Translations under genes and position numbers: made by a program | DNA from: an uncultured Intestinimonas sp. | GTDB taxonomy: Bacteria; Bacillota; Clostridia; Oscillospirales; Oscillospiraceae | Direction of reading: 5' to 3' | Assembly (NCBI RefSeq): GCF_944387245.1 | Contig: NZ_CALXEE010000007.1 | Location: 1 to 41,248, forward strand | Length of the DNA: 41,248 nucleotides | Notes under the pieces: model-generated | The model's database searches: none | What the model was told of the DNA's origin: nothing | Seen by the model: the letters and a program-made list of their open reading frames with translations, nothing else | Shown here: piece after piece, positions 15,950 to 23,817 of the stretch | How the letters are laid out: each line of letters starts with the position of its first letter | Numbering within the stretch: position 1 is the stretch's first letter

Positions 15950-16196
15950 AAATGCCCATCTCCCGCAGCCCCCGTTCCAGGGCCATGAATTTTTGATAGA
16001 TGCCCAAGGGGGCACACTTGCGATAGTCCTTGTACTCCAGCCCCGACTCCAGGACCTGGACCTTTTTCCCCTCCAGCAGGGCCCGGAGCACCGCCCCTTC
16101 CCCGTCGGTGAGGACCAGCCCCAGGGACAGCGAGCCCATCTGCTCCACCGGCAGCCGGGTGATGACCAGGGCCCCGTCCCGCGTCTCCAGTTCCAT
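15924..16196 (-). CDS. TIGR02536-like ethanolamine utilization protein
   Basis: A 90-residue soluble protein found, in related forms, between eutT and eutN in Firmicute eut operons. The stretch AVLRALLEGKKVQVLESGLE, followed by YKDYRKCAPLGIYQKFMALE and REMGICVV, fits my memory of the TIGR02536 family; the residues before it (TRLPVEQMGSLSLGLVLT) form a small beta domain. No function is established. It has GAGGAGG seven bases before its ATG, starts 12 bases after the eutT stop, and its end overlaps eutN by 26 bases. It is shorter than the TIGR02536 members I recall, so it may be a reduced version. Confidence 0.6.
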   Translation of the reverse strand: MELETRDGALVITRLPVEQMGSLSLGLVLTDGEGAVLRALLEGKKVQVLESGLEYKDYRKCAPLGIYQKFMALERGLREMGICVVRDRRR

Positions 16197-16208
16197 GGGA
16201 ACACCTCC

Positions 16209-16937
16209 TCAGCCCGTCTGGTATTTGCCCGCCTTCAGCTGGATCATCATGATCCACATCAGGGAGGAGAGCCGGTTGAGGCCCAGGATGATGTCCTCCC
16301 GGGTCACCCCGCCGTTCTCGTCCCGGAAGGCCCGGTAGGCGGCAAGTTCCGTCTGCCGGGCCACCGCGCGCACCTTGTTCACCGCCAGGATGGCGGGAGA
16401 GTCGGTGTATCGGATGAGGAAGTGGCCCTGGCCGTAATATTTTTCCGGGTAGTGGGACCGCTCCCGCAGCTCCGCCGGGGTCAGGCCGCAGAGCTTGACC
16501 TCCCCCACCGGCTCCTCCAGCACGTCGAAGCGGATGAAGCGCCGGACAAAGTCCAGCACCTCCTCCAGCTCCTCCGCCAGGGCGGGCACCCCTTCCCGGA
16601 CGCACACCTGCTGGCACAGGGCGATCTCCCCCTCCAGCAGGTCGATCATCCCCCGGAAGGCGATGCGGGGGTGGTCCTTGAAGACCAGGATGTTGCCCTT
16701 CAGATGGGTCATGTGCTCCGGTTTCTCCGTCAGCACGGCCCCGAAGAGGGTACGGTACTTCCCCGCCCCCTCCTGGTCCTCCTCCCCCTTGCCCTGGGGG
16801 TAGACCACCTCCACCCGGTGCTCCCGGAGGAAGGACCGGGCGGAGGGGGTGAGGACGTCCCCCCGGGCCACCACCACCGGCCCCCGGGTGCCGTTGTCCG
16901 ACATCTGCCGGACCCGCGCCTCCGTCAAGAGGGCCAC
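16209..16937 (-). CDS. eutT: Corrinoid adenosyltransferase EutT
   Basis: A 242-residue enzyme that uses ATP to adenosylate cob(I)alamin, giving the adenosylcobalamin cofactor of EutBC. It has an N-terminal ~50-residue region (VVVARGDVLTPSARSFLREH, a merR-like/EutT N-part) and a helical core with HMTHLKGNILVFKDHPRIAF, the paired cysteines of ALCQQVC, and the C-terminal helix EDIILGLNRLSSLMWIMMIQ. These match EutT rather than the PduO or CobA types. The start is GTG at 16937, with GGGAGGG seven bases upstream, overlapping the end of eutM. It stands between shell genes, which fits cofactor supply within the microcompartment pathway. Confidence 0.9.
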   Translation of the reverse strand: MALLTEARVRQMSDNGTRGPVVVARGDVLTPSARSFLREHRVEVVYPQGKGEEDQEGAGKYRTLFGAVLTEKPEHMTHLKGNILVFKDHPRIAFRGMIDLLEGEIALCQQVCVREGVPALAEELEEVLDFVRRFIRFDVLEEPVGEVKLCGLTPAELRERSHYPEKYYGQGHFLIRYTDSPAILAVNKVRAVARQTELAAYRAFRDENGGVTREDIILGLNRLSSLMWIMMIQLKAGKYQTG

Positions 16938-16940
16938 GGC

Positions 16941-17543
16941 TTAACCCTCCCGGTCGAATTCCCCGGCCTTGTGGGGCAGGATGCCGTCCACCTCGGCGTG
17001 GGGGCGGGGAATGACGTGGACGGAGATGAGCTCCCCCACCTTCTCGGCGGCGGCGGCGCCGGCGTCGGTGGCCGCCTTCACGGCGCCCACATCCCCCCGG
17101 ACCATGACGGTCACCAGACCGCCGCCCACCTGCTCCTTGCCCACCAGCTGGACGTTGGCCGCCTTCACCATGGCGTCTGCCGCCTCAATGGCCCCCACCA
17201 GTCCCTTGGTCTCCACCATACCCAGTGCGTTTGTGTTTGCCATTTGCTTTGTACTCCTTTCCTGTTGGGGCTGTTCCCCCCTGTCCGCTGTCTGCTTCGC
17301 TGTCCCGCCGCCCTTGACGGCGGCGGCCAGGCTGGTCAGCTCCTCCTTGGCCGGGGCTTTCTGCCTCCGTGCCCCGGAGGGCTTCTTTTCCTCTTTGTCC
17401 GCCCCCTTGGCGGCCACCGCCGCCTCCCGCAGGAGGTCGGCGGCGGGATCATACATGATCCCCTCGGTCTGGACCCGGTCCTGGAGGTCCTCCCCCGGCT
17501 GGGGGACGGGCAGCTCCGGGCCTTCGGTATTTTTTGCTCTCAT
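16941..17543 (-). CDS. eutM: Microcompartment shell protein EutM with in-frame N-terminal extension
   Basis: The last 100 residues (from ATG 17243: [20 protein letters not shown]) are a standard hexameric BMC-domain shell protein of EutM type ([52 protein letters not shown]). Unusually, the frame stays open for 100 residues upstream to an ATG at 17543, one base after the eutE stop and 10 bases from AGGAGG. This extension is Lys/Pro/Ala-rich, with two short amphipathic helices ([15 protein letters not shown] and [11 protein letters not shown]) joined by likely disordered linkers, like encapsulation peptides of cargo proteins. The 100-residue form also has its own ribosome binding site, so two products may be made. 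I am sure of the BMC domain; whether the extension is translated, or is a separate gene that lost its stop codon, is open. Confidence 0.85.
17241..17263 (-). promoter_or_regulatory. Internal ribosome binding site and start of short EutM
   Basis: On the minus strand GGAAAGGAG (about 17262-17254) stands 10 bases before the ATG at 17243-17241, in frame with the longer reading frame. It supports a 100-residue EutM made in addition to the extended form. Confidence 0.7.
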
Positions 17544-17544
17544 C

Positions 17545-19026
17545 TCATGTCAGCCTCCTGACGATCTGGTCCACCAGCTCCCGGAGGAGGGCGTCGTCCA
17601 CCGCCGGCCGCCCGGCGCTCTGCCATGGGGCGGCGGCAGCGCCGCCCCGCAGCTCCTCCAGCTCCTTCACGCCCCAGGCCACCCGCTTGATGTTGATGAG
17701 GTCCAGAGGGCCGATGTTGTTGGAGGAGGAGGAGCCCCCCACCGCGCCGCACCCCAGGGTGAGGGCGGGGAAGAGGCAGGTGGTGGCGCCGATGCCGCCC
17801 AGGGCGGAGGGGGTGTTCACCAGCACCCGGCTGGCGGGGACGGCCTGGGCAAAGCGTTTGACCACAGCCTCGTCCTCGGCGTGGATGGAGAAGGTGTGGC
17901 CCGCACCCTCCCACTCCAGAATCTCCACGCAGCGCCGGAGGACGGCCTCCTCATCCTGCTCCACGTAATAGGCCAGGATGAGGCCCAGCTTCTCGCTGGA
18001 GTAGGGGTAGCCGGGGCCCACCCCCGTCTCCCGGGCCACCAGCACCCGGGCGGTGGCCGGCACCTTGTCCAGCCCGGCCAGCTTGGCCACCGTCTCCACG
18101 CTCTTGCCCACGATGGCCGGGTTCATGGTGCCGTTGGCGCGCAGGATAAACTTGGAGAGCTTTTTGTGCTCCTCGTCGCTGAGGAGGTAGGCTCCCTGGC
18201 GTCTGAGCTCCTCCGACACCGCCCCCTCCATGGCCCGTGTGGTGACGATGGACTGCTCGCTGGCGCAGATGGTGCCGTTGTCAAAGGTCTTGGAGTCCAA
18301 GATCCGCTTCACCGCCTGGGCGACGTTTGCGGTATGGTGGATATAGGCCGGACCGTTGCCCGCCCCCACGCCGATGGCCGGGGTGCCGGAGGAGTAGGCC
18401 GCCTTGACCATGGCGGCGCCGCCGGTGGCCAGGATGAGCCGGGTGTGGTCGTGCTTCATGAGGGCGCTGGTGGCCTCCAGGGTGGGGGTGGCAATGCAGG
18501 CGATGGCCCCCTCGGGAGCCCCCGCCTGCCGGGCGGCTTCGGAGACCACCTTCACCGTCTCGCCGATGCACTTGATGGCGCTGGGGTGGGGGGAGAAGAT
18601 GATGGGGTTGCCCGCCTTTATACAGATCATGGCCTTGTAGATGACGGTGGAGGTGGGGTTGGTGGAGGGCACCAGCCCCGCCACGACCCCCACGGGCACC
18701 CCGATGTCGATGGTCCGCTTCTCCCGATCCTGGGCCAGGATGCCGTGGGTCTTTTCCTCCTTGATGGCGTCGTAGAGGGTGAGGGCGGCAAATCGGTTCT
18801 TGATCTCCTTGTCCTCCGCCTTGCCGTAGCCCGTCTCCTCCACCGCCATCTGGGCAAGCCGCCGGGCGTGCTCCGCCCCGGCCTTGGAGATGGCCGCCGT
18901 GATGCGGTCCAAATCCGCCTGGCTCATGGCCGCCAGGGCCCGCTGGGCTTCCCTGGCCTTGCCCACCAGGTCCCGGACCTCCTGGATGGAGCGCAGGTCC
19001 TTGTCCAGTTTCATGGGTTCTGTCAT
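17545..19026 (-). CDS. eutE: CoA-acylating acetaldehyde dehydrogenase EutE
   Basis: A 493-residue enzyme that converts acetaldehyde, CoA and NAD to acetyl-CoA inside the microcompartment. It shows the aldehyde dehydrogenase fold: [16 protein letters not shown] (about residue 118), the nucleotide loop [27 protein letters not shown], and the catalytic cysteine in [10 protein letters not shown] (Cys254). The last 30 residues ([20 protein letters not shown] after an Ala/Gly linker) form an amphipathic helix of the kind that targets cargo to shells; in many homologues this signal is N-terminal, where here a short helix [16 protein letters not shown] also occurs. The ATG at 19026 is set by GGGAGG, which lies within a leftover eutL 3' end directly upstream. 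Confidence 0.95.
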
Positions 19027-19028
19027 AT

Positions 19029-19088
19029 TCACACCTCCCTGGGTTGTCCGGCCACATTCAGCACCGCCTGGGCGAATGCCTCGCATGC
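19029..19088 (-). pseudogene. Second, diverged copy of the eutL 3' end
   Basis: The peptide ACEAFAQAVLNVAGQPREV plus a stop codon repeats the true EutL end ACEAFAAAVLDVAGCPREV located at 19254-19310. By hand count 16 of 19 residues and 43 of 57 bases agree; most differences are synonymous. It stands two bases before the eutE ATG and contains the GGGAGG used by eutE. Upstream it continues in frame through the repeat-rich spacer to an ATG at 19250, giving a possible 73-residue chimeric product with its own GGGAGG, the one at the true eutL end. Confidence 0.8.
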
Positions 19089-19253
19089 AACCCACCGGAT
19101 GTTCCATCCGGTGGGGACCCGGTCCTCTTTACATGCTCGGGGCAAATGAATTGCCCCTGCGCCAAGGTTTTGGGCCACGGGCCCAAAACGCTTGTGCGCG
19201 CCTTCGGCGCGGCTCGCTTCCGCTCGCAGGCCGCCTGTTCTTTTCTCCATGCC
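19089..19253. repeat. Palindromic spacer between eutL and the eutL-tail remnant
   Basis: Three consecutive hairpins: CCCACCGGATG (19091-19101) with CATCCGGTGGG (19105-19115); GGGGCAA (19139-19145) with TTGCCCC (19151-19157); TTTTGGGCC (19168-19176) with GGCCCAAAA (19180-19188). The GGGGCAA...TTGCCCC unit with its AATTCATT loop resembles dispersed palindromic repeats of Oscillospiraceae genomes (from memory). No gene is convincing here. Confidence 0.6.
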
Positions 19254-19907
19254 TCAGACCTCCCTCGGACACCCGGCTACATCCAGCACCGCCGCCGCGA
19301 ACGCCTCACAGGCGGCCTTGCAGGCACTCTGGGTGCCGGTGAGGAGCCCGCCGCCGAAGTTGGTCTCGCTGGGGGGCTCAAAGAGGGCGGCCAGGGTCAC
19401 ATCGGCCGCCTTCATGGCCTCGTCCAGCCCCACCACCGCCTCCAGGGGCGGCGCGATGAGGTAGGCCAGGGCCTCCCCCTCCCGCACCCCGGCGGTCTTG
19501 GAGAGGTAGCTCCCTGTCCGGGATACGGTGTGGGCGAAGTAGACGATGGAGTCGTCGGCGTTGGCGGAGCGGAAGCCCACCCCGCTCTCGAAAAATTCCA
19601 CCGCCGCTCTGAGCCCGCTCTTCACCTCGGAGGGGTTGGGCCCGGCCAGGATGCCGATGACCTCCCCCGCCAGCTTGGTGTTGGCGTTGGCCGCGCCTGC
19701 GTAAAGGCTCCGGCCATAGACCACCTCCACGGCGGCGGCCTTGGTGGCCTCGTCCAGGGCGCAGTAGGTCACGTCGTCGCTGTCGGCGGTGAGGATGCCG
19801 ATGGACCGGAACTCCGGCCTTAAACCCAGCTTTTCCGCCAGGGAATCGGATACATTGGCGATGGTGCGGGTGGCCAGGGCGTTGCATTTGAGAAGGTCTC
19901 CCGTCAT
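19254..19907 (-). CDS. eutL: Microcompartment shell protein EutL
   Basis: A 217-residue trimeric shell protein with two tandem BMC domains (permuted type). Recognisable parts: RSIGILTADSDDVTYCALDE, EVVYGRSLYAGAANANTKLAG, ILAGPNPSEVKSGLRAAVEF, and in the second half EGEALAYLIAPPLEAVVGLD and SETNFGGGLLTGTQSACKA. EutL trimers form a large gated pore and bind ethanolamine. The ATG overlaps the stop of a leftover eutC tail (ATGA) and uses AGAGGAG inside that tail. A diverged second copy of its own last 19 codons follows about 165 bases downstream. Confidence 0.96.
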   Translation of the reverse strand: MTGDLLKCNALATRTIANVSDSLAEKLGLRPEFRSIGILTADSDDVTYCALDEATKAAAVEVVYGRSLYAGAANANTKLAGEVIGILAGPNPSEVKSGLRAAVEFFESGVGFRSANADDSIVYFAHTVSRTGSYLSKTAGVREGEALAYLIAPPLEAVVGLDEAMKAADVTLAALFEPPSETNFGGGLLTGTQSACKAACEAFAAAVLDVAGCPREV

Positions 19908-19993
19908 GCCCCCACTCCTCTCGCCAGTTCGATGCCGGAGGCCTTTTTCTCCAGCATGGTTTTTACCAATTCCGCAATATGAGCACCCGCCAT
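19904..19993 (-). pseudogene. Second, diverged copy of the eutC 3' end
   Basis: The peptide [20 protein letters not shown](EL) at 19925-19990 repeats the true EutC end [20 protein letters not shown](DL). By hand count 19 of 22 residues and 47 of 66 bases agree; all three changes are conservative (I/V, R/K, D/E). After six more codons it ends in a stop that overlaps the eutL ATG by four bases, and its last codons contain AGAGGAG, the eutL ribosome binding site. The frame is open upstream through the spacer into the end of eutC. Confidence 0.8.
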
Positions 19994-20078
19994 TCCCCGC
20001 CCGTCGGAAATGAATTCCGCCGGGCTCCGGCGCATCCGCGCCGCCCCGCTGTGCGGGGCCCCGTGGAGGCCGGTCTTG
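19994..20078. repeat. Palindromic spacer between eutC and the eutC-tail remnant
   Basis: An ~85-base insert with GCCCCGC (20043-20049) pairing with GCGGGGC (20053-20059) and a GGAATTCATTTCC-type unit (about 20004-20018) similar to the AATTCATTT hairpin in the eutL/eutE spacer. No gene is visible. Confidence 0.5.
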
Positions 20079-20963
20079 TCAGCGCAGATCAATACCGCTC
20101 GCCTTCCTTTCCAGCATGGTCTTAATTAACTCGGCGATATGTGCCCCGGCCTCCACCGCCGTTGTCCCCTGACTGTGGATATTGGAGATGACGGTCCGCT
20201 TGGATTCCGGGATACCGATGTGGGCGCCGTAGGTGAGGTAGGCCGACATGGACTCCGCCGTCACCAGGCCGGGCCGCTCCCCCACCAGCATGCACACCAC
20301 CTCCGCCCCGGTGAGCTCACCGATGTGGTCGGAGGCGCCCACCCGGCAGTACTTTACAAAGAGGGTGGGGCCGGGGTCGATGCCGTAGCTCTTCAGACCC
20401 GCCCGGATGGCCTCCATACAGTCGGCGGCGTTGGCCTCAATGGCGGCGGAACTGAGGCCGTCCCCCACCACCAGGGCCACCTTGGGGGCATGGCCCAGGG
20501 TCTTCCGGATAAGGGCCTGCTGCTCGTCGTCAAAGCGGCGGCCCTTGTCGGGCCGGGTCAGGTACTCGTCCTTGTCTTTGCACAGGGTGTGGAGAGGCAC
20601 ATAGCCCTGGGCCTTCACAAAGTCCTCGCTGACGTGGGAGAAAACCGAGTCCTGGGCGGCGGCGTGGTCGCACCGCATGCGGAGCATGGTCTCGGTTTTG
20701 TACCGTGCCCCCGCCCGGCCCATGCCCAGCCGGGCGGGAGTCTTGGCCTTCAGCTCCAGGAAGGCGGGGCCGTTTTTCGGATTCTGGACCAGGTAGAGCC
20801 GCCGCAGGTCGATGGCGGCGATGTCCTGGAGCTCCCCGCCCTCGACTGCCGGACCGGGCTCCATGGGGTGATAGTCGGCCCCCTTCACCTGGGGGGTGGG
20901 TGCCTGACCCATCAGGTCGGCTACCATCCGCTCTACCAGGGCCCGCAGTTCTTTGTCATTCAA
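20079..20963 (-). CDS. eutC: Ethanolamine ammonia-lyase small subunit
   Basis: A 294-residue subunit that, with EutB, splits ethanolamine to acetaldehyde and ammonia using adenosylcobalamin, which it helps to bind. Typical segments are [20 protein letters not shown] (about residue 75), [72 protein letters not shown] and the C-terminal [19 protein letters not shown]. The start is TTG at 20963, seven bases after AAGGAGG; the nearby ATG is out of frame. The first ~20 residues ([16 protein letters not shown]) are a helix seen in other EutC proteins and proposed to target the enzyme to the shell. A repeat element separates it from eutB, and a diverged copy of its own 3' end follows. Confidence 0.97.
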
Positions 20964-20981
20964 AGTTGAAACCTCCTTATA

Positions 20982-21030
20982 GGCTTCCCCTGGGGGAAGC
21001 TGGCAGCCCGCAGGGCTGACTGATGAGGGG
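20982..21030. repeat. Palindromic intergenic repeat between eutB and eutC
   Basis: GGCTTCCCC-tg-GGGGAAGC (20982-21000) followed by TGGCAGCCCGCAGGGCTGAC (21001-21020) and TGATGAGGGG. Two hairpins (GCTTCCCC/GGGGAAGC; CAGCCCGCAGGGCTG) and the CCTCATCAGTC end on the minus strand match, as I remember it, a very common dispersed repeat of Oscillospiraceae/Ruminococcaceae genomes. Confidence 0.65.
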
Positions 21031-21073
21031 AAAGGCCCCAGTCCGGCTTAGCTTCGGGCGGCTGCTCGCCGCC

Positions 21074-22438
21074 TCATGCCAGCAGAACCGAGCCGTCCCC
21101 CGCCAGGGGGGTGAGCTTTCCGTTCTCCACAAAGCCCATCCTCTCCAGCCAGTCCTGGAAGGGCCTGATGGCGGTGAGACCGAAGAGCTCCCGGAGGGCG
21201 GCGGTCTCATGGTAGCCGGTGGTCTGGTAGTTGAGCATCACGTCGTCGCCGTGGGGGATGCCCATGAAATAGTTGCACCCGGCGGCGGTGAGGAGGACGG
21301 CCAGGTCCTCGATGTCGTTCTGGTCGGCCTTCATGTGGTTGGTGTAGCAGGCGTCACAGCCCATGGGGACGCCGGTGAGCTTGCCCATGAAGTGGTCCTC
21401 CAGCCCCGCCCGGATGACCTGCTTGGAGTTGTAGAGGTATTCCGGGCCGATGAAGCCCACCACGGTGTTGACCAGGAAGGGCGCAAAGTGCCGGGCAAAG
21501 CCGTAGCACCGGGCCTCCATGGTCACCTGGTCCCAGCCGTTGTGGGCCTCGCTGGAGAGCTCCGAGCCCTGGCCGGTCTCGAAGTAGAGGACGTTGGGAC
21601 CGGTGGCGGTTCCCTCCTTCAGGGCCAGGGCCCGGGCCTCGGCGATGGTGTCGGCATTGAATCCGAAGGCCTCGTTGCCCTTCTGGCTCCCGGCGATGGA
21701 CTGGAAGATGAGGTCGGTGGGAGCGCCCCGGCGGATGCACTCCATCTGGGTGGTGACGTGGGCCAGCACGCAGGTCTGGGTGGGGATGGCCCAGCGCTCC
21801 TTCACCTCCTGGAATCGCTCCAGCACCCGGGTGACGCTCTCCACCGAGTCGTCCACCGGGTTGAGGCCCAGCACCGCGTCCCCCACCCCGAAGGTGAGGC
21901 CCTCCAGCAACGAGGCCAGGATGCCGTCCGGGTCGTCGGTGGGGTGGTTGGGCTGGAGCCGGGCCGACAGAGTCCCCGGCTCCCCGATGGTGGTGTTGCA
22001 GGTGGCGGTGACCCGGATTTTCTTGGCGGCGTAGATGAGGTCCAGGTTGCTCATGAGCTTGGCCACCGCCGCCACCATCTCGCTGGTAAAGCCGTGGGAG
22101 AGCCGCCGGATAGCCGCTCCGTCGTTCTTTTCATCCAGCAGCCACTCCCGCAGCTCCCCCACCGTCCAGTTCCGGATTTCTGCAAAAATCTTCTCGTTGA
22201 TACCGTCCTGGATGATGCGGGTCACCTCGTCCTGTTCATAGGGGACGGCAGGCTCGTTCCGCAGATCGGCCAGGGTGAGGTTGGCGAGCACCACCTTGGC
22301 CGCCACCCGCTCCTCGGCGTTCTCGGCGGCGATGCCCGCCAGCCGGTCCCCCGACTTTTCCTCGTTGGCCTTGGCCATGACCTCCCGGATGGTATGGAAG
22401 TCATAGACATGGCCCAGCAGCTTGGTCTTTAAATTCAT
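21074..22438 (-). CDS. eutB: Ethanolamine ammonia-lyase large subunit
   Basis: A 454-residue TIM-barrel subunit carrying the active site of the B12-dependent ammonia-lyase. Typical segments are [79 protein letters not shown], the active-site stretch [18 protein letters not shown] (about residue 283), and [20 protein letters not shown]. Length is normal. The ATG at 22438 overlaps the eutA stop (ATGA) with GGAGGAA just upstream. It is the most conserved gene of the operon and the best evidence for ethanolamine rather than propanediol as substrate. Confidence 0.98.
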
Positions 22439-23817
22439 AGGTTCCTCCTCTCCCGGCGTTCCCCGCCGGGCACACTGTTTGAAAAGGCCAGGGTCTTGAC
22501 CACCACCGGCAGCACGCTGCCCCCGGCCACGGGGGCGCCGATGTCCAGATAGTCCCCCTCCCGGACGCTCACGCCGTCCAGGCACAGCAGGGGGCTGCCC
22601 CCCATGGCCTGGCCCAGGACCTTGGCCATATCCCGCTCCACCACCACCACGGGGAAGTACCCCGCCGTATACATAGGCTCCAGCCCTGCCCGCAGGCCCC
22701 GGGCCAGTTCGGCCACCCGCCGATAGGGGGGTGACACCTCGCCGGTGAGGGCCAGGGCCACCTGGCATAACCCCTCCTGGTCGGCGTACCGCTTGAGCCT
22801 TCGCTCCACCGCCGCCGCCAGGGCCTCGGCGTCCCCCTGTTCCTCCCCTTCTGTGAGCCGGAGGACGGGGAGGTTTTTCAGGGGGAAGGCCACCTCCCGG
22901 CAGTGGATGGTGGAGCCGGAGACCTCCACCGAGTGAGCCCCCGCCCCCACCACCGTGGCCCGGATGGTCTCGGCGCCCCGGACCAGTTCATAGCCCGCCC
23001 CCTCCAGACGCCGCCGGAGGGCAGGACCCAGCAGCGGTCCCATGTCCCCAAAGGCCCGCCAATCTGGCGGTGGGGCCCACATGCAGTCGGCCACGCCTCC
23101 TGAAAAAGAGAGGACCTGGACGTCCTTGGGAATGGCCTTTTCCAGGACTTCCGTCATGGCATCGATAAGGGGGGCCAGCCCGGCGGCCTCCACCCGCTGT
23201 CCCAACGCCGGCACTAAGCTGGACCATGGTTCCAAAACCGGGGAACGGTAGATCACCCGGCCCTCCCGGTCCAGCTTCAAAAGCCGCCCGCCGATGTCCA
23301 GGCAGTCGGTATCCAGGAGGCTCCCACAGTCGTAGAGGGCCAGGTTGGAGGTCCCGCCGCCGATATCAAAGTGTAATACTTTGCACCGATGTTCCCTGGA
23401 GTATTCATCCGCCCCCCCTCCCCGGGCGGCCAGGATGGACTCCAGGTCGGGGCCGGCGGTGGCCACCACGAAGTCCCCGGCAAACTCCGAGAGGGCGGCC
23501 AGGACCGCTCGGGCGTTCTCCTTCCGGGCAGTCTCTCCGGTGATGATGACCGCCCCCGTCTCCACCTCCTCCCGGCGGAGCCCCGCCTTTTGGTACTCCG
23601 ACCCCACGATGGACCGGACGCCGTCGGCGTCGATGACGGTGTCCGAGAGGAGGGGCGTAAAGTGGATGGCGCTGCGGTAGACGATCTCCCGCTCCGTGAT
23701 GGCCACCCGGGGCACTGTGAAGGGGCTGGCCCGGTTTTCCAGGGTCAGGTGGGAAATCACCAGTTGGGTCGTACTTGTACCAATATCGATGCCCACCGAT
23801 TTCAGGATCTCCCTCAC
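22435..23817 (-). CDS. eutA: Ethanolamine ammonia-lyase reactivase EutA
   Basis: A 460-residue ATPase of the actin/Hsp70-like (EutA) family that exchanges damaged cobalamin in EutBC for fresh adenosylcobalamin. The start [19 protein letters not shown] is the phosphate-1 motif, [20 protein letters not shown] (seen as [18 protein letters not shown], about residue 145) is the second, and [13 protein letters not shown] follows the third. I chose the GTG at 23817 because the protein then begins directly at the family start and overlaps the previous stop by four bases (GTGA). The open frame extends much further upstream but that part is antisense-like, repetitive and not EutA. Confidence 0.95.

Follow-up and report, generated by a model that had tools for sequence, protein, structure and literature searches.

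The eutC-eutL and eutL-eutE junctions

The stretch of DNA analyzed in this work (41,248 nt, hereafter the window; contig NZ_CALXEE010000007.1 of assembly GCF_944387245.1, from an uncultured Intestinimonas sp.) carries eut genes with Pfam matches to EutC, to a BMC-domain protein (EutL) and to an aldehyde dehydrogenase (EutE). On the minus strand, they follow the order eutC, spacer, second eutC tail, eutL, spacer, second eutL tail, eutE, and each spacer harbors a small hairpin element. A first-pass annotation made from the sequence had pointed out that the 3′ ends of eutC and eutL are both followed by a diverged second copy. Its base counts proved exact on recount (22 codons and 47/66 bases for eutC, 19 codons and 43/57 bases for eutL) and a hand count of both peptides gave the same residue identities (19/22 and 16/19, respectively). 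Local alignment of the tail copies scores 43 for eutC and 50 for eutL, the best of 2000 mononucleotide shuffles reaching 32 in each case. The signals of the next gene also lie where this annotation had placed them, since the displaced eutC tail leads to an ATGA overlap with eutL and the displaced eutL tail contains GGGAGG before the ATG of eutE.

In the following, p designates the insertion point inside a gene, A the gene body upstream of p, T1 the tail in use, T2 the displaced resident tail and X′ a short stretch that adjoins the first hairpin and is complementary to the target gene around p. In the eut gene bodies, p was set by eye from occupied and empty relatives. All the features described below are on the minus strand. 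The eutC body (20152..20963, Pfam EutC) ends at p, between 20152 and 20151, and is followed by T1 (20085..20151), which the gene uses now, then by CGC and the stop codon TGA at 20079-20081. The X′ of this unit, CCGGCCTCCAC (20063..20073), is the reverse complement of GTGGA|GGCCGG across p. It precedes a degenerate hairpin element (19992..20062, 28.7 bits) which, by eye, has lost the terminal hairpin hpE present in G009, G005, G006 and G002 and is devoid of the CAAG..CTTG hairpin of typical copies. The displaced resident tail T2 (19925..19991) and the remainder of the resident eutC tail (19904..19924), with the ribosome binding site (RBS) and the ATGA overlap with the eutL start, complete this junction. 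The eutL unit has the same organization: a body belonging to the BMC domain family (19314..19907), T1 with its stop codon (19254..19313, 46/60 bases identical to T2), X′ ACAGGCGGCCT (19228..19238, reverse complement of AGGCC|GCCTGT across p), a full-length element with hairpins hpA to hpE (19091..19227; covariance model R1, 112.6 bits, E = 1.8e-24) and a displaced tail (19029..19088) that includes a stop codon and the RBS of eutE, whose ATG is at 19026.

A family of small hairpin elements

The genome of the window (G000) comprises 2.31 Mb in 136 contigs and is 82% complete. When it was searched with the eutL-eutE spacer, 26 matches were obtained at E ≤ 1, the query's own site counted. The consensus fold drawn from 18 aligned copies displays both-sided changes in 16 of its 25 pairs, and the covariance-model search of G000 gave 43 matches at E ≤ 1, of which 38 are below 1e-10. 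The model matches all 11 genomes of the genus, with a single match in G007. Outside the genus, a first draw provided matches in none of two other genomes of the family and in one of seven genomes from other families of the order; in a larger draw, with at most 13 candidates scored per genome, 82 of 250 genomes of the family and 48 of 106 genera were positive. The carriers found among titled genome records include Flavonifractor sp. An92 and Pseudoflavonifractor phocaeensis An507. Over 106 distinct element sequences, in an alignment fitted to the model, 98.5% of the pair cells are standard and the covariation score is 0.453 versus 0.136 after shuffling. No Rfam family matched positions 16000-23000 of the window or ten loci, apart from one chance match to a long non-coding RNA (E = 0.63) outside the finding.

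The element is about 140 nt long, folds into five hairpins and contains no open reading frame of its own. The spacer between the tail copies measures 104-172 bp in 16 of the 17 loci that were laid out and 210 bp in the remaining one, a tandem locus; tandem units do exist, three elements being found behind secA. Prophages and integrative elements located in gene ends encode an integrase and use one site. The elements described here have no room for an integrase gene and on this feature do not belong with them. No terminal inverted repeats were apparent by eye in the 18-copy alignment, no dedicated test having been made. In the modelled stems, G-T cells outnumber A-C cells (30 versus 12). The terminal hairpin hpE has 106 wobble cells versus 19, an excess seemingly due for the most part to a single conserved purine-T position (column 157); in hpA there is no such excess (16 versus 25). 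The G-T excess and the conserved purine-T pair of the terminal hairpin give a hint that this strand may fold on its own.

Some related sequences deserve mention. One spacer query gave no blastn match on plasmids, and viral contigs did not display the strict tail-element-tail pattern; two unannotated faecal phage records, MT838853.1 and MT839134.1, have partial matches to the same query (48% and 44% of its length, about 78% identity). G018, which belongs to another family of the order, contains a closely related core with 89 matches at E ≤ 1e-5 (loci L089, L100 and odd-numbered L281-L305), and in the two copies inspected this core sits inside longer hairpin-rich DNA. In G008, very similar element copies lie, by eye, between overlapping phage-tail-like genes (L108 and L116), with at most a 16/17-bp repeat at one of them. 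Finally, the start of contig 21 of G000 (L036:1-362) shows a 121-bp duplication of a gene start, lepA-like by eye, around hairpin DNA, which is possibly another element type (E = 0.5 with the model).

Tail copies flank the element at many loci

The non-redundant set of 178 copies (40 copies in G000, 121 in the ten other members of the genus, 15 in titled genome records and two in G018) gathers the better-scoring copies among the matches listed and not every copy of these genomes. A direct copy of the upstream flank follows the element in 149 of the 174 copies with usable flanks (score of at least 45); mismatched loci gave a null distribution with a median of 20 and a 95th percentile of 27, the 99th percentile being raised to 95 by pairs of loci in the same gene. 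Such junctions, which the first-pass annotation had proposed to look for elsewhere, are thus numerous. By genome, the tail copy was detected in 33/38 copies of G000, 13/15 of G008, 15/15 of G004, 15/20 of G009, 0/1 of G007, 0/2 of G018 and 11/15 of those from titled records. In G094, a single-contig genome from another genus, 13 of the 15 best-scoring among 48 copies carry a tail copy, neighbouring elements being masked. An assembly artefact is ruled out by the single-contig genomes G008 (13/15) and G094 (13/15) and by the isolates An92 and An507.

The second copy begins within 10 bp of the modelled element end at 142 of the 149 loci. At these 142 loci, the carried tail is 31-151 bp long (median 66 bp) and the genes concerned form 38 families plus 25 singletons, i.e., 63 gene groups. 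Those struck in G000 include secA, uvrB, infB, trmFO, ychF, argG, serC and rsfS, named from partial proteins, with secA, uvrB and infB below the whole-protein cut-off. Frames were assigned by a codon usage trained on 15 open reading frames of the window, with scores below 0.1 for 7 of the 149 loci. The frame left of p is sense, i.e., the gene runs toward the element, in 122 loci and antisense in 27. In 100 of the 122 sense loci, the stop codon is located between 30 bp upstream and 13 bp downstream of the tail end, and nine have it more than 13 bp beyond; in 19 of the 27 antisense loci, an RBS-preceded start codon is found within -60 to +10 of the tail end. Antisense copies at a start identified by eye as sdaAB-like (L056/L022, L081 and L096) duplicate the RBS and the start codon, and the same site is used in G000, G002 and G008. 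A coding score was obtained for 86% of 129 left flanks versus 8 of 120 right flanks (6.7%; 90 bp). The proposal that displaced tails were kept because they drive the translation of the next gene is therefore not needed in general.

Both tail copies carry the mark of coding constraint

The codon-by-codon comparison of T1 and T2 was limited to loci that align without gaps, have an unambiguous frame and show the second copy no more than 10 bp from the element. Over 106 stop-side loci (1919 codons), the differences by codon position 1/2/3 amount to 50/33/268. Of these 351 changes, 279 are in synonymous and 72 in nonsynonymous codons (synonymous divergence, pS, 0.205; nonsynonymous divergence, pN, 0.016). 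Only one of the 106 T2 copies has an internal stop codon, and 79 keep the stop at the same place. From these comparisons, both tails appear to have been coding. Since T2 lies behind a stop codon and nevertheless differs from T1 mostly at synonymous sites, simple duplication followed by decay does not predict this pattern. Adenine-directed hypermutation, as caused by diversity-generating retroelements, was also rejected: pairs more than 90% identical show 164 transitions and 64 transversions of all kinds.

These data bear on a first alternative, namely an ordinary insertion with an unusually long target-site duplication (a staggered cut of 31-151 bp), whose copies would start identical and then drift. 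The strict identity of T1 and T2 at several loci (77/77, 114/114 and 80/80 bases) is what it would predict, and the location in gene ends would be explained if copies survive only where the gene stays whole. However, target duplications of bacterial transposons are generally far shorter than 31-151 bp. Furthermore, drift would not confine the differences mostly to synonymous sites in a T2 that has no start codon and lies behind a stop, nor would a staggered cut make the copied stretch end near the stop codon in 100 of 122 sense loci rather than anywhere beyond. This alternative accounts neither for X′ nor for the fact that, in the eutC of the window, T2 and not T1 resembles the single tail of the nearest relative (see below). 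We consider it very unlikely.

Occupied and empty eut sites in relatives

The eut sites were compared in ten genomes, G007 giving no match, and the same sites proved to be occupied in some relatives and empty in others, which answers the junction comparison suggested by the first-pass annotation. The eutC site is occupied in G000, G009, G005, G006 and G002 and empty in G001, G003, G010, G004 and G008; the eutL site is occupied in G000, G009, G005, G001, G006 and G003 and empty in G002, G010, G004 and G008. No tandem eutC or eutL paralogues, which would have pointed to simple decay of duplicates, stand at the junctions of the ten genomes.

All five occupied eutC genes end in GIDLR, and their T1 encodes the same 23 residues followed by a stop in all five genomes. 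The displaced copies encode GIEL plus five to six residues such as ARGVGA. An ARG-type end is found in three of the five single-tail genes (G001, G010 and G008), G004 having another end and G003 DLR. Compared to the single tail of G001, the T2 of the window differs by 4/66 bases and its T1 by 17/66; the contrast is smaller in the four other occupied genomes (11-14/66 for T2 and 14-19/66 for T1). T2 being near the tail of G001 and T1 far from it, the tail now used by this eutC appears to be the newcomer and the remnant the original one. The suggestion that the copies are tails of other alleles agrees with this and with the mostly synonymous nature of their differences. Likewise, the idea that the resident eutC tail persists as a remnant while the tail in use is foreign agrees with this comparison, whereas the foreign origin assumed for the whole inserted gene is not, being restricted to the tail.

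Synonymous divergence between species steps up at p

Divergence between species was analyzed in same-site stop-side families only. In 80 species pairs, pS was computed in six-codon bins: it stays at 0.22-0.31 between codons -72 and -7, reaches 0.34 in the six codons that immediately precede p and rises to 0.45-0.66 after p; nonsynonymous divergence is 0.03-0.07 before p and 0.04-0.08 after, with 0.14 in the last small bin. T is more divergent than A in 21 of 22 families (p = 1.1e-5) and in 77 of 80 pairs, and the A and T distances are uncorrelated (rho = 0.17, p = 0.13). Gene bodies thus diverge ordinarily up to p and only the tail departs; the simplest reading according to the first-pass annotation, i.e., the insertion of complete eutC and eutL genes of foreign origin, is not supported. 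When codons equally distant from the stop are compared, pS is 0.314 in A versus 0.742 in T (17-24 codons) and 0.276 versus 0.536 (9-16 codons), the 25-32 codon bin being uninformative with only 10 sites in T. A general rise of synonymous divergence at gene ends is countered by this distance-matched comparison and by eutB (noisy values of 0.08-0.52, no consistent rise). The step is less clean in the single-gene profiles of eutC and eutL over the ten genomes.

Empty sites also seem to keep traces of exchange. The uvrB tails are hypervariable in four genomes with an empty site (0.569 versus 0.250 upstream), as if they had been exchanged in earlier rounds, and between G000 and G005, uvrB alleles appear to have changed places, T1 of one species corresponding to T2 of the other. 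In eight families, the runs of identical codons shared by genomes exceed in length those of 300 column permutations (762 versus at most 742), a difference to which the clustering of conserved codons could contribute, and the nearest neighbour by body is also the nearest by tail in 8 of 17 cases (5.2 expected by chance).

It could be argued that the insertions are ancient and vertically inherited, with gene conversion between T1 and T2 and ordinary homologous recombination between strains, but without any targeted mobility today. The occupation of the same sites across species, the greater similarity of T1 and T2 within a genome than of tails between genomes, and the T1/T2 swaps and mosaics would all fit such a history, which would also explain the failure to find an enzyme (see below). 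However, recombination tracts should end at varied points of the gene body, whereas the rise in divergence is located at p. Concerted evolution by itself is not expected to produce a twofold neutral divergence, tail and body distances are uncorrelated, and the hypervariable uvrB tails of four empty-site genomes, as well as X′, are left unaccounted for. Overall, this scenario appears unlikely. Plain homologous import is disfavoured for the same reason, since imported tracts should have no common boundary within the gene body.

A stretch complementary to the insertion point

X′ complements the target gene from about -5 to +9 around p. It was tested at the 131 loci without masked bases beside p, against a null built from mismatched locus pairs: 91 loci exceed the 95th percentile and 63 the 99th. 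Among these 91 loci, a Watson-Crick match is found in a fraction of 0.80-0.95 at each position between -2 and +6, and the values approach background beyond about -7 and +10; as the profile is drawn only from loci that passed the test, its height is biased but its position is not. The X′ of eutL scores 22, compared to a maximum of 20 in its null windows (11 compared to a 95th percentile of 9.5). The target itself varies from locus to locus and displays only weak base preferences, such as G at -2 in 56 of 91 loci, without any short fixed target.

Where the target differs between species, X′ most often follows its own species. On the A side, it fits its own species in 23 cases, the other in 5 and neither in 10; on the T side, the corresponding numbers are 47, 8 and 13 (ordered pairs, hence not independent). 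When the comparison is limited to segments that are already paired, 79 of 90 cases fit the own species and 5 the other, the unlimited counts being fairer. Where T1 and T2 differ, X′ follows T1 in 34 cases, T2 in 12 and neither in 15.

A complementary stretch of this kind recalls the internal guide sequence of group I introns, in which P1/P10 span the junction as X′ does. The element might then be intron-like: splicing would join A to T2, and the unspliced message would use T1. Such an arrangement would be consistent with the constraint seen at the protein level in both tails and with a conserved, covarying fold. Nevertheless, it is highly improbable, since the best-scoring frame runs in the opposite direction in 27 of 149 copies, the scanned stretches match no Rfam family, about 140 nt would be very small for an intron, and T1 should have decayed if splicing worked.

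A proposed mobile gene-tail cassette

This work confirms that the duplicated gene ends noticed in the window are real and extends them to a family of non-coding elements associated with carried, exchanged gene ends. Strong support exists for the element family, for the tail copies and for the rise in divergence at p. The insertion at p of a cassette organized as T1-X′-hairpins fits the divergence step seen there, the matched X′ and, in eutC, the presence of a foreign T1 together with a resident T2. We therefore favour, as a reasonably probable interpretation, that each junction marks the entry of a mobile gene-tail cassette, which exchanges the end of a gene and probably finds its address by base pairing. 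The alternative raised by the first-pass annotation, in which a repeat element invades the ends of genes and repairs them, is in this respect well supported.

The cassette would consist of T1, i.e., the coding end of the target gene with its stop codon, followed by X′ and the five-hairpin element of about 140 nt. It would enter at p, inside a gene and near its end, so that T1 completes the gene and T2 is left untranslated behind the element. X′, acting as RNA or as single-stranded DNA, may pair with the target strand and position the insertion on a folded single strand, much like the guide of IS608; this guided single-strand insertion is a reasoned guess. Through X′, cassettes could home to the same gene in other strains, and recombination between T1 and T2 might remove the element and leave an exchanged tail at a site that looks empty. 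As for the acquisition of the tail of a new gene, one guess is that a new upstream cleavage point would be chosen by X′.

Several observations weigh against this interpretation. The automatic tail test was failed by 25 of the 174 copies. Among them is the eutC copy of the window itself (score of 28, 29/39 bases), whose element is degenerate and whose tail copy rests on direct alignment, base count and comparison with relatives and not on this test. In G018, only one of 15 tested copies has a tail copy, neighbouring elements being masked. X′ does not exceed the 95th percentile of the null at 40 of 131 loci, and the X′ of eutC falls within the null of its window (22 compared to a maximum of 24). 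Start-side loci are under weaker purifying selection (25 synonymous versus 22 nonsynonymous changes; 17 loci, 296 codons). The eutC bins are noisy (0.63, 0.88, 0.29, 0.51 and 0.40 after p versus mostly 0.18-0.52 before), as are those of eutL (0.62, 0.31, 0.31 and 0.77 after p versus 0.11-0.51 before), and family 14 goes the opposite way. The single T1-type eutC tail of G003 could be read either as a donor-like allele or as a scar, and some of the insertions at shared sites may date from a common ancestor. In addition, pS is 0.23 between T1 and T2 within a genome versus 0.54-0.56 between T copies of different genomes, so that partner copies also exchange with each other. Lastly, no mobilizing enzyme was found. 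The Y1 transposase domain (Y1_Tnp, PF01797) is found in 8 of 18 genomes, with no match at E ≤ 1e-5 in G004 (99% complete, 21 copies) or G105 (97% complete); the reverse transcriptase domain RVT_1 is also found in 8 of 18 genomes and was not detected in G000 (82% complete). As many carriers are incomplete metagenome-assembled genomes, the absence of an enzyme is firm only in near-complete genomes. A Y1 transposase or a reverse transcriptase as universal partner is not supported by these counts.

A variant of the cassette model would rely on a reverse transcriptase that copies the element RNA and the end of the message back into the gene at p. The excess of G-T over A-C cells in the modelled stems and the position of the end of T near the stop codon would agree with an RNA intermediate. 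However, the distribution of RVT_1 and its absence from G000 do not support this variant, start-side copies would need an antisense RNA, and the wobble excess of hpE seems mostly due to one purine-T position, hpA having none. Such a retro-mechanism is thus decidedly unlikely.

Comparison with known systems and significance

According to the passages of PMC6379469 that concern it, the 15-kb element e14 supplies the end of icd and displaces a homologous fragment of 163 bp to its far side; the same source describes Rac in ttcA as a 5′-end case with an altered N-terminus. The cassettes proposed here would resemble e14 and other prophages in gene ends, in that a gene end borne by the element restores the gene and the original end is displaced; gene-end restoration is read from sequence comparison and the movement of cassettes is presumed. 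In contrast to the 15 kb of e14, as given in those passages, the element is about 140 nt long, has no open reading frame and concerns 63 gene groups, each copy carrying the tail of its own gene.

In IS608, as described in the excerpts of PMC5934647, a guide located just 5′ of a hairpin base pairs with the cleavage or target site, and changing the guide redirects integration; this guide is a tetranucleotide and the target is TTAC. X′ may be comparable to it: it lies beside a hairpin, and its sequence complementarity to the target is maintained where the target varies between species. Unlike the IS608 guide of these excerpts, X′ has about 14 nt and differs at each locus, a host coding tail is carried, and a Y1 transposase is not consistently present. 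The nearest precedents are IS608 for the mechanism and e14 for the genetics, and the elements belong to neither.

The elements are also short, non-coding, palindromic and multi-copy, like the repetitive extragenic palindromes (REP), bacterial interspersed mosaic elements (BIME), miniature inverted-repeat transposable elements (MITEs) and small palindromic repeats presented in parts of PMC3733652, PMC2817692 and PMC2229807. For small palindromic repeats, these parts of the three papers mention neither the coding end of an adjacent gene nor a locus-specific complement of the insertion point. Unlike those of MITEs, which have a short and identical target duplication, the flanking repeats found here are 31-151 bp long and often diverged. 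No such element was found described in openly licensed PubMed Central papers, subscription literature being mostly outside that search.

If this interpretation is true, a selfish element would avoid harm to its host in a new manner, namely by bringing the piece of the gene that it breaks. Sites that are specific to each locus and mostly matched by the complement carried by the element suggest an insertion directed by base pairing and possibly reprogrammable. In its broadest form, which we put forward tentatively, a mobile element without genes, carrying a recoded host gene end and an address of about 14 nt, would circulate between species and repeatedly replace the ends of housekeeping genes, and could represent a naturally programmable and self-healing insertion system. 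The last 10-50 codons of housekeeping genes such as uvrB can then have a history separate from that of the rest of the gene, which matters for phylogenies and for annotation (displaced tails, false short open reading frames).

Additional ethanolamine-type loci were observed in the genome of the window: contig 20 of G000 carries two more eutL-like stretches (74% identity) and a eutE-like one (68% identity), corresponding to L002, L003 and L004.

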